Source: a virus. From it: a stretch of DNA of 28,811 bases. The position numbers and the translations under genes were made by a program. This document shows positions 975 through 4,820 of this stretch, one piece after another (the first letter of the stretch is position 1; every line of letters starts with the position of its first letter). The notes under the pieces are model-generated. The model did no database searches, was not told where the DNA came from, and worked only from the letters and a program-made list of their open reading frames with translations. The stretch covers positions 1 through 28,811 of the IMG/VR virus record IMGVR_UViG_3300006922_000128. The stretch is one strand, 5' to 3'.

Positions 975-1304
975 ATGAAAGAATTTAAAAACATGTTCTT
1001 TGGTATATTTTTTGTTATCTTCGCTCAAGGATGTGCTACAGTTGGTACCATCAATGAAGCAGTAGTAGAAGGCATAGCCGATACTACAGACACAGTTTTT
1101 ACTGGTGTCTCTAAAGTAACAGGCGCAGTTGTTAATGAGGCAGGAAATGCCTTACAAACAGGTGCTGAACTAGGCGTTGGCATAGTCCAAGGTGCTGGTG
1201 ATATTGTTGCTGGTTCAGTCGAAGTTGTTGCTGATTCTGTAAATGAATCTACAGACGCAGTTCAAGACGATAAAGAAGAAGCAAAAGAAGAGCCAAAAAA
1301 GTAA
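975..1304 (+). CDS. Phage-encoded lipoprotein
   Basis: 109 residues. A short basic start (MKEFK), a hydrophobic core and the lipobox AQGC (Cys20) mark a signal-peptidase-II lipoprotein that would be anchored in the inner or outer membrane. The mature part is an Ala/Val/Gly/Thr-rich amphipathic repeat (recurring TxxVxxGxxxV..AG patterns) ending in a Lys/Glu tail, with no enzymatic motif. A strong Shine-Dalgarno (AAGGAGAA, 962-969) sits before the ATG. The last sense codons are CCA AAA AAG directly before TAA, which creates a canonical A_AAA_AAG slippery heptamer. A -1 shift there would add 58 residues (see findings). Possible roles include superinfection exclusion or a spanin-like outer-membrane component; neither is shown. 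Confidence 0.75.
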   Translation: MKEFKNMFFGIFFVIFAQGCATVGTINEAVVEGIADTTDTVFTGVSKVTGAVVNEAGNALQTGAELGVGIVQGAGDIVAGSVEVVADSVNESTDAVQDDKEEAKEEPKK

Positions 1305-1477
1305 GACGCTCATTCTTTAAACCCTTTGTGTTTTTTAAAAAGCAGGAAGGTATAGCAACACCCTCGAAAGAGAGTGAGCAGGTGACTGACGAGGATATTA
1401 AACAATTGATTGAGGAGGTTAAACTTCTAAAAGCAGTTATGGAATATTGCTCCAAGAATCCTAAGGAATGTGAATAA
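1301..1477 (+). CDS. Short -1-frame extension of the lipoprotein, or a 49-residue separate ORF
   Basis: This frame is open from 1274 to a TAA at 1475-1477. Read from the only plausible start, GTG at 1328, it gives 49 residues: a Lys-rich start, an acidic helix-prone middle (EQVTDEDIKQLIEEVKLLKAV) and the end MEYCSKNPKECE. It could also be read by a -1 frameshift at the A_AAA_AAG heptamer (1295-1301), adding 58 residues with a very basic junction to the lipoprotein. Its end overlaps the next gene by 8 bases. Its YCxxNPxECE motif recurs in that next protein, which argues that this stretch is truly coding. No Shine-Dalgarno precedes the GTG. Function unknown. Confidence 0.5.
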   Translation, partial: VRRSFFKPFVFFKKQEGIATPSKESEQVTDEDIKQLIEEVKLLKAVMEYCSKNPKECE

Positions 1478-1955
1478 GTTATTATTACTTTTACCTATCA
1501 TGATATTTCCTCTGTTAGCAATAGCAGAGGAACATATCGTTAAGTTAGATCTAACTTACAAAATGCCAATAGACTTTAACTATTGTGACAACAATCCCCC
1601 AGAGTGCGAGCCACTGCCACCCTTAGTACCAAAATTTGATATGCGAGAAGGCGCAACAAATAAACAATGGGCAATATTTTGGACATTCCAAATATTAGAT
1701 GTATACTCTACATCAAAAGCATTACAGTACGATTGTATAAAAGAAGTAAATCCGTTGTTTACAGACTCGCCTAGTAATACTAGATTAGTATTAACAAAAA
1801 GTGTACTACTTATACCTGGCTTACTTTACAATGATTACTGGAAAAATGTAGACCCTGAAGAACTAGATAATACTAATATGTTATATGCGGCAGTTGTTGG
1901 AAATAATTTTAGGTTACTAAAGAGAGCCAAACGAGATTGCAATAGAATAAATTAA
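1470..1955 (+). CDS. Secreted or membrane protein with signal peptide and E-x-NPL motif
   Basis: 161 residues from GTG 1470 with AAGGAA just upstream (1463-1468). Residues 1-19 form a Sec signal peptide with a likely cut after AIA. The mature protein carries YCDNNPPECE (about residues 38-47), a Pro-rich linker, and then a region resembling small membrane proteins of the DUF5658 type: hydrophobic WAIFWTFQILDVYST, EVNPLF, then a second hydrophobic stretch near LVLTKSVLLIPGLLY. That family resemblance is from memory of the D..T / E.NPL pattern and is tentative. The first Cys motif matches the end of the preceding short frame, suggesting related or interacting products in the envelope. Confidence 0.6.
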   Translation: MNKLLLLLPIMIFPLLAIAEEHIVKLDLTYKMPIDFNYCDNNPPECEPLPPLVPKFDMREGATNKQWAIFWTFQILDVYSTSKALQYDCIKEVNPLFTDSPSNTRLVLTKSVLLIPGLLYNDYWKNVDPEELDNTNMLYAAVVGNNFRLLKRAKRDCNRIN

Positions 1956-2710: not shown

Positions 2711-2958
2711 TGGATTCAGACAAAATTATTAGTGCCTTGCAAAAAGGCGTTGTTACAATCGTTTTTGAAAAAATAGATACAGGGGAAATTCGTACAATGC
2801 CCTGCACATTAAATAACGATATATCAGGACAATCATTAAAAATTAAAAAGTACTCTAGTCCAGATGCAGTAGTATGTTGGGGCCTTGACGTAAAAGCATG
2901 GCGAGATGTTAGAGTTAATACTATAAAAGAATGGTACGAAGGATATCCTAAAGAATGA
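2710..2958 (+). CDS. Small conserved beta-rich phage protein (DUF2693-like)
   Basis: 82 residues starting at ATG 2710, which overlaps the reductase stop by one base; the upstream in-frame TTG at 2707 is not needed. The protein reads as a short helix, then a strand pattern GVVTIVFEK / IRTMPCTL, and ends with VVCWGLDVKAWRDVRVNTIKEW. The combination of GVV-VxFxK, a central CTL and a final W[DE]xxxxxWRxxR is, from memory, that of small DUF2693-type proteins common in T4-like phages; function unknown. It overlaps the cyclase start by four bases (ATGA), so its translation is coupled to both neighbours. It is probably a phage core gene into whose operon the reductase and cyclase were placed. Confidence 0.6.
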   Translation: MDSDKIISALQKGVVTIVFEKIDTGEIRTMPCTLNNDISGQSLKIKKYSSPDAVVCWGLDVKAWRDVRVNTIKEWYEGYPKE

Positions 2959-4820
2959 AATGGCTATACAGTGGCTATGCTGTAATTTTATCAATAGCAC
3001 TATTGTTAGGTTTACAAGTTGCAGACCCTACGCCAATTAAAAATTTAAGAAATCAAACATTCGACGCCTATCAGCAACTAGACGAAATCAAACAAAGTAA
3101 CGAAGTTGTTATTGTAAACATAGGAGAAAAGAGTTTACAGCAATGGGGACAATGGCCATGGCCAAGGCAAAACTTTGCCCAACTAATCCATGACCTAAGA
3201 CAGAAGAACCAAGGCATAATTGGACTTACAGTTATGTTTCCAGAAGCAGATAGGTTTGGCGGCGACCCTACATTAGCAAGTTGGTTGAAAGGCAACGGTA
3301 TTGTGTTATCACAAACACCAAGTACAAGAGGTGTTAAAACAACAGGACCTCATATAGGTACAGGAGTTATTGGACCTACAAAGGCACAAGACTTTTTATT
3401 AACATGGCCTAACTTAGTAACAAACATACCCGAATTAGAAGCAGAAGCATTTGGCATAGGTGTCAACGCCTCCGCTCCGCAACCCGATTTTGTAACAAGA
3501 ACATATCCATTAGCAATAGGAGTAGAAGGAAAAATATATCCTAGTTTTGCAATAGAGATGTTGCGAGTACAAACAGGCAAACCCAGTTATATAATTAAAA
3601 CAACAAATATAGGAATAGATGAATTTGCTGTTCCGCCATTTGATCCAATAGTTACATTACCAAAAGGTGATGCATATATACGTTACAATAATACATTTGA
3701 AGAAGTAGAATATGTAGACATAAACAGTTTGCCAAATATGGGTGGCAAATTTGTAATTGTGGGCGTTACAGCAGAGGGTGTTGCTAACCCTGTGCCTACT
3801 CCAAGAGGCAATATGTATCCACAGCATATACAAGCACACATGCTACAAAATTTTATAGATGGATCAAACATACAGCGGAACCAAGTATCGCCGCTTATAG
3901 AACTTCTGTGTGCGTTGTGTGGCATGATTTTAATAGCCATCGCGGTGTATAGATTACCTTTACTGTGGACAGCACCTATTTCACTGCTGATTTTAGGTGG
4001 AGAAGCATATGGTAGTGTATGGTTATACCAAAACAAATTACAGTTAGTAGATGCTACTTTTCCTGTGCTAAGTGGCTTCTTAATTTTTACACAATCAGCA
4101 TTTAATAACTTCTATAAACAATACAAATTACGTCAACAAATCAAAGGACAGTTTGGTACTTACATATCCCCGGACTATGTTGATATGTTAGTTAAAGATC
4201 CTAGTTTAATGAAACTAGGTGGCGAAAGAAAAGAAATGAGTTTTATGTTTGCTGACATAGTCGGCTTTACGCCCATATCAGAAAAGTATATGAAAGCAGA
4301 TGACCCAGAAGGATTAGTAGAACTAATAAACAGTTTCTTAGATAAAATGACTAAGATAGTTTTGAAGAACGGCGGTACAATAGACAAGTTCATGGGCGAC
4401 TGTATAATGGCGTTTTGGAATGCACCTTTACCATGTGAAAATCATGCTGAGATGGCAGTTAAAACAGCAATAGAAATTGAACTACTTGGCGACGAACTAG
4501 AAAAAGAAATGGAACAACGTGGCTTGCCAAGAGTGAAATTTGGTACAGGTGTAAACACTGGTACATGTATTGTCGGCAACATGGGTGCTGAAACTAGATT
4601 GGATTATAGTGTTGTAGGTGATGCTGTAAACTTAGGTGCTAGACTCGAAGCACAAACAAGAGCAGAAGACACACCAATTATTGTTTCTGAATATACATAC
4701 TTGCAATGCAGTGATATAGCATTTAGTAGCATAGGCGAAGTTACTGTGAAAGGTAAGGAAGAGCCAGTTAGAATGTATGCTCCATTATTTGATGGTAAAG
4801 TTAGAAAACTTTACAAGTAA
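2955..4820 (+). CDS. CHASE2-domain transmembrane class III adenylyl cyclase
   Basis: 621 residues with a complete sensor-cyclase layout: an N-terminal membrane anchor (about 5-22), an extracytoplasmic CHASE2 sensor domain (about 25-300), two or three closely spaced membrane spans (about 312-380), a short linker and a cytoplasmic class III cyclase domain (about 425-610). Catalytic features are intact: metal-binding Asp434 (FADIVGF) and Asp482 (FMGD), purine-selecting Lys478 with Ser552 in the position usually Thr in bacterial adenylyl cyclases, and transition-state residues Asn559 and Arg563 in VNLGARLE. Expected reaction: ATP to cAMP plus pyrophosphate, gated by an unknown periplasmic signal. 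The ATG overlaps the preceding stop by four bases. It ends directly against a convergent minus-strand gene. A full-length membrane sensor cyclase is unusual in a phage and probably came from a bacterium. Confidence 0.9.
   Translation: MKWLYSGYAVILSIALLLGLQVADPTPIKNLRNQTFDAYQQLDEIKQSNEVVIVNIGEKSLQQWGQWPWPRQNFAQLIHDLRQKNQGIIGLTVMFPEADRFGGDPTLASWLKGNGIVLSQTPSTRGVKTTGPHIGTGVIGPTKAQDFLLTWPNLVTNIPELEAEAFGIGVNASAPQPDFVTRTYPLAIGVEGKIYPSFAIEMLRVQTGKPSYIIKTTNIGIDEFAVPPFDPIVTLPKGDAYIRYNNTFEEVEYVDINSLPNMGGKFVIVGVTAEGVANPVPTPRGNMYPQHIQAHMLQNFIDGSNIQRNQVSPLIELLCALCGMILIAIAVYRLPLLWTAPISLLILGGEAYGSVWLYQNKLQLVDATFPVLSGFLIFTQSAFNNFYKQYKLRQQIKGQFGTYISPDYVDMLVKDPSLMKLGGERKEMSFMFADIVGFTPISEKYMKADDPEGLVELINSFLDKMTKIVLKNGGTIDKFMGDCIMAFWNAPLPCENHAEMAVKTAIEIELLGDELEKEMEQRGLPRVKFGTGVNTGTCIVGNMGAETRLDYSVVGDAVNLGARLEAQTRAEDTPIIVSEYTYLQCSDIAFSSIGEVTVKGKEEPVRMYAPLFDGKVRKLYK

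Follow-up and report, generated by a model that had tools for sequence, protein, structure and literature searches.

The window, as we call the whole stretch of DNA analysed, is a 28.8-kb IMG/VR virus record carrying myovirus genes (tail sheath, tail tube, terminase and a UvsX-like recombinase), and its terminase was closest to the terminases of Pseudomonas jumbo phages of the PA5oct/MIJ3 group (58.5% identity). Some 10 kb away from the genes for sheath and tube, on the plus strand, lies a gene of 109 codons (positions 975-1304) whose product starts with a basic N-terminus and a hydrophobic stretch leading into the lipobox FAQGC, which fits the form (F)AQG-C, closes at Cys20 and has Ala at +2. 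Cys20 is invariant across the family, and with this signal peptide and lipobox the 109-residue product is predicted from its sequence to be a bacterial lipoprotein. It matched no Pfam or PHROG family above threshold; searches of Pfam, PHROGs and Rfam likewise gave no convincing match to the lipoprotein, to the extension described below or to the frameshift signal. An AlphaFold model of the lipoprotein was unusable (mean pLDDT 42.5). Upstream of the gene, three consecutive short ORFs (133-905) encode small predicted membrane proteins, with no Pfam match above the cut-off. Downstream, at 2955-4820, the phage encodes a class III nucleotide cyclase whose N-terminal part is a CHASE2 sensor domain (Pfam CHASE2 7e-39, Guanylate_cyc 1e-20), and the cyclase gene is also found downstream of the lipoprotein locus in several relatives.

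The 3' end of the lipoprotein ORF reads CCA AAA AAG TAA. The protein thus ends in PKK, and the slippery heptamer A_AAA_AAG (1295-1301, plus strand) adjoins the 0-frame TAA (1302-1304) in a phase that suits tandem -1 slippage; the codons of ORF 975-1304 bear out the earlier note on this DNA, which had placed the heptamer in the correct phase before the stop. Among the 32 window genes checked, A_AAA_AAG occurs in phase only once. Just 5' of the heptamer is the purine-rich AAAGAAGAG, in which no strong Shine-Dalgarno was seen by eye; stimulators of that type are frequent at bacterial -1 sites but are not required. The -1 frame then stays open for 58 codons (VRRSFFKPF...MEYCSKNPKECE), with sense codons at 1301-1474 and a stop at 1475-1477, also as had been noted. 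Markov resampling put the chance of a 58-codon open -1 frame at ~0.01, so the case from this single sequence is suggestive only, and it is conservation that settles it.

Searches with the lipoprotein and with the extension found relatives on about 54 further contigs (one match from the first extension search, L023, was unrelated and was rejected), and together with the window these gave 36 distinct DNA sequences from the heptamer to the extension stop. The earlier note had called for a check that heptamer and -1 frame are kept in relatives, and both were kept in 32 of the 36. These 32 are all the sequences with a -1 extension; in them A_AAA_AAG is invariant and the homologous extension is always in the -1 frame. 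An in-frame fusion of lipoprotein and extension was found in none of the 36. The 0-frame stop adjoins the heptamer in 27 of the 32, and in five distinct distant sequences (L105, L118, L136, L137, L139) one further codon comes first. A search of viral contigs with the pattern AAAAAAGTARNNNGCTCATT returned 53 matches, 41 of them in the lipoprotein family (counted by reading the rows); the other 12 look like chance because the upstream in-frame ORF has at most 25 codons. No isolated phage matched the DNA region, the lipoprotein, the extension or either of two distant lipoproteins used as queries. Distant relatives of the lipoprotein (L119, L125, L126, L127, L128 and L129) have neither heptamer nor extension, and some of these are directly followed by other small genes. 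Since such extension-less lipoproteins exist in other phages, the lipoprotein is probably the older part and the tail an addition that it can lack.

The earlier view that no properly placed stimulator is present proved to be mistaken. GCTCATTCTTT (1308-1318, plus strand) pairs with AGAGAGTGAGC (1369-1379) in a candidate stimulatory stem of 11 continuous bp that begins 7 nt 3' of the heptamer (+7), and an inner hairpin whose sequence varies among relatives is predicted within its loop (1323-1350). Against synonymous-codon resampling, the window scored 4/1000 for the helix and 0/200 for MFE. In every relative a stem follows the heptamer closely, with +7 as its usual starting point. In a main group of 32 sequences, made up of the 27 -1 sequences with a direct stop, L105, and the four sequences with +1/-2 extensions that are treated below, the helix has 10-13 bp and starts at +4 to +7; its scores beat synonymous-codon resampling with p of 0.06 or less in each, these sequences being related and the tests not independent. 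Within the stem, 98.9% of cells were paired and four pairs were changed on both sides; none of 500 shuffles reached this level of pairing, and slid versions gave 50-61%. The arms were spliced out by hand for the covariation count, and RNAalifold on an unconstrained alignment agreed, recovering the same 11 pairs unaided. Compensatory changes include GCTCATTTTTT with AAAAAATGAGC in L110/L112, U-A to A-U at the last pair in L059/L061, and C-G to A-U at the second pair in L105 (protein-anchored register). In L118, L136, L137 and L139, the four most distant sequences, the helices are shorter (7-8 bp) and lie in the same place, L118 having a short helix, a bulge and then 8 bp, and in these four the helix alone was no better than the synonymous null.

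Codon choice within the arms was synonymously frozen: Ser4 was TCA in 32/32 sequences (35/123 elsewhere), Phe5 was TTC in 29/31 (8/84 elsewhere), Gln35 was CAG in 26/28 (19/74 elsewhere), and the Glu codons of the 3' arm were GAG in 61/61 (64/229 elsewhere). As a separate observation, AAAGAAGAGC at 1284-1293, 5' of the heptamer, can pair with the 5' arm (1308-1318) in free RNA, so an elongating ribosome might need to melt one helix before the other forms.

The GAAA hairpin pointed out in the earlier note does exist, at about 1360-1375, but it is not the best candidate for the stimulator, a place that goes to the long-range 11-bp stem. The hairpin is less conserved (83% of cells paired across the family), uses bases of the stem's 3' arm and so competes with the better-supported stem; we rejected it as the stimulator, and it may be an alternative fold. 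Within the same stretch, the nucleotides of a CCTC at 1362-1365 are invariant, its wobble base always being C (32/32 vs 36/288) though the residue encoded is Pro, Ser, Thr or Ala. A GAGGA lies outside the stem at 1391-1395, and the Glu39 codon is GAG in 31/32 sequences. Pairing of CCTC with GAGG (1391-1394) as stem 2 of a pseudoknot is speculation, as the nucleotides are conserved but show no covariation and L110 has no GAGG. The exact fold of the stimulator is therefore uncertain, with a competing local hairpin and a possible pseudoknot.

The extension itself is under purifying selection about as strong as that acting on the lipoprotein (pN/pS 0.43 and 0.42, respectively), and the other two frames across it hold 5.7 and 9.2 stops on average. 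Heptamer, -1 frame and spaced covarying stem are conserved together in 32 distinct sequences, which supports the earlier reading of the locus; on these comparisons we consider it very probable that a programmed -1 ribosomal frameshift at A_AAA_AAG extends the lipoprotein. With its in-phase heptamer, a stem at +7, inside the range of about 5-9 nt expected for a stimulatory structure, and conserved -1 coding that lacks a start of its own, the site would belong to the X_XXY_YYZ class. Most ribosomes would read the lipoprotein to the TAA and yield the 109-residue product, while a fraction would pause at A_AAA_AAG against the stem 1308-1318/1369-1379; two Lys tRNAs would then re-pair one base back, and the -1 frame would be read to 1474, giving a minor product of 167 residues.

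Among other explanations, the one that fares best, though we think it improbable, is that the tail is encoded by a small gene of its own, or that ribosomes terminating at the lipoprotein stop re-initiate to translate it. In its favour, codons 10 and 28 of the window's extension are GTG, and a stop lies directly upstream; however, 22 of the 36 distinct sequences lack any ATG, GTG or TTG among extension codons 1-25 although residues 3-8 (RSFFKP) are conserved, i.e., from the third codon on, which argues against both versions. The invariant heptamer and the placement of the stem relative to it would also be left unexplained. The case that the earlier note had named as refuting a frameshift, relatives that lose the heptamer and keep the short frame as a gene with its own start, was not seen in the four heptamer-less relatives: L053 and L060 have no start before extension codon 44, and the four show no consistent gained start.

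Slightly less probable still is slippage of RNA polymerase on the A run (transcriptional realignment), by which mRNAs one base longer or shorter would be made. A run of 6 or 7 A is present, but this is short, runs longer than 7 being cited for polymerase slippage (PMC3711429), and the conservation of A_AAA_AAG in a single phase, followed by a stem at +7, is more readily explained by ribosomes than by polymerase. That the stem has another job, such as in mRNA stability or as a terminator, and that the heptamer arises incidentally from a Lys-Lys ending, strikes us as very unlikely. Lys-Lys endings are indeed conserved at the protein level, but there is no U-run 3' of the stem, the position of the stem is nearly fixed relative to the heptamer, and L105 and the L118/L136 group retain A_AAA_AAG though their 0 frame runs one codon on and ends in Asp. 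Finally, the notion that a frameshift (or an assembly error) split what was once a single gene, leaving the extension as a decaying remnant that stays open as would happen by chance about 1% of the time, is refuted by dozens of independent contigs with the same arrangement, no in-frame fusion and purifying selection on the extension.

Programmed frameshifting of a different direction may operate in the four heptamer-less relatives (L053, L060, L062 and L063). In these, GAA AAG AAG TAA/TAG replaces the heptamer, the extension is in the +1 (= -2) frame, and the same stem lies one base closer. This move of frame behind the same stem suggests a switch to -2 (or +1) recoding. In a -2 slip the P-site Lys tRNA would land on AAA, whereas a +1 slip would need an AAG to AGU pairing, which is worse. 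The four extensions are 73-92% identical to one another and sit on three lipoprotein backgrounds (88% identity to L115, 87% to L105 and 88% to the window), which suggests that signal and tail travel as one module. A tree of the whole protein did not group the four because lipoprotein and extension histories differ. In L031 and L032, the extension DNA is identical while the lipoproteins are only 52% identical, a pattern that again points to recombination between the body of the lipoprotein and its tail. We judge the chances evenly balanced that these four sequences passed from -1 to -2 (or +1) recoding through a synonymous A-to-G loss of the heptamer and a one-base change of the spacer, within a swappable module; if true, a single family of phage genes would have passed naturally, in the course of evolution, from one kind of recoding to another. 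Phage Mu provides precedent for a -2 frameshift (PMC5009743) as a phage that reaches the +1 frame by -2 slippage, though its gene and slippery site differ and the -2 reading of GAA AAG AAG TAR is only inferred here.

The extension would add a stretch of basic residues and a helix, which ends in the conserved motif YCSKNPKECE; AlphaFold gave one confident helix, at tail residues 30-52 (block pLDDT about 86-91). As the lipoprotein is exported, the two Cys of the tail probably lie in the periplasm, where they could be joined in a disulfide. The product of the next gene (1470-1955, plus strand), which is outside the signal, is an exported protein that matches DUF5658 weakly. The claim that the extension ends exactly where this gene begins was wrong, since the GTG at 1470 overlaps the extension stop by 8 nt; the claim of a motif common to the two proteins was sound (YCSKNPKEC in the extension, YCDNNPPEC in the next protein). 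The pattern [FYW]C..[NHKD][PA]..C had only two plus-strand matches in the window, one in each of these proteins, and the common Cys spacing (YC..NP..C) suggests, at the level of sequence, a shared contact. In six distinct relatives (L034, L037, L039, L059, L061 and L137) the next gene is not immediately downstream and the extension is kept, so the next protein is not an obligatory partner. As to function, we tentatively propose as the likeliest role, at odds somewhat short of even, that two lipoprotein forms are made in a fixed ratio and that the periplasmic helical tail of the rare one, with its conserved Cys pair, makes a protein contact.

A close phage parallel is gpG/gpGT of lambda, which uses G_GGA_AAG and whose product is a cytoplasmic tail chaperone. 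There, as proposed for the lipoprotein, a small share of the product gains a C-terminal extension through a -1 shift close to the 3' end of the gene, in an arrangement conserved across diverged phages. The window gene differs in encoding an exported lipoprotein outside the tail region and in using A_AAA_AAG with a stem at +7; it showed no homology to G/GT-type tail-assembly chaperones, having no PHROG match above chance, and its location some 10 kb from the sheath and tube genes is not the position between tail tube and tape measure genes that this type occupies. OrfA/OrfAB of the IS3 family have the same layout, with a heptamer of the A_AAA_AAG type close to where the first frame ends, a structure 3' of it and a longer fusion product. 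The lipoprotein locus would instead fuse a 58-residue tail, with no transposase or insertion sequence, and neither lipoprotein nor extension had a Pfam transposase match. E. coli dnaX (tau/gamma) combines the same A_AAA_AAG heptamer with a downstream stem (PMC3711429), as does the lipoprotein signal, but has an upstream Shine-Dalgarno stimulator and a shorter -1 product, whereas in the lipoprotein gene the -1 product would be the longer one and the stop adjoins the heptamer. In the SEA-PHAGES set used for PRFect, most annotated phage frameshifts are in tail-assembly chaperones (PMC10885494). We found no paper on a frameshift in a phage lipoprotein in the open-licence literature, and an earlier report elsewhere is possible.

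The mechanism is of a known kind. As far as the databases searched show, the novelty lies in the gene family, in how deeply it is conserved and in the possible change of slip direction. The signal would be a widespread and deeply conserved example in uncultivated marine phages, with an extension that gene callers would miss. The family offers many natural variants of one signal, in spacer, in stop position and possibly in slip direction, through which the rules relating stem and heptamer may be tested.
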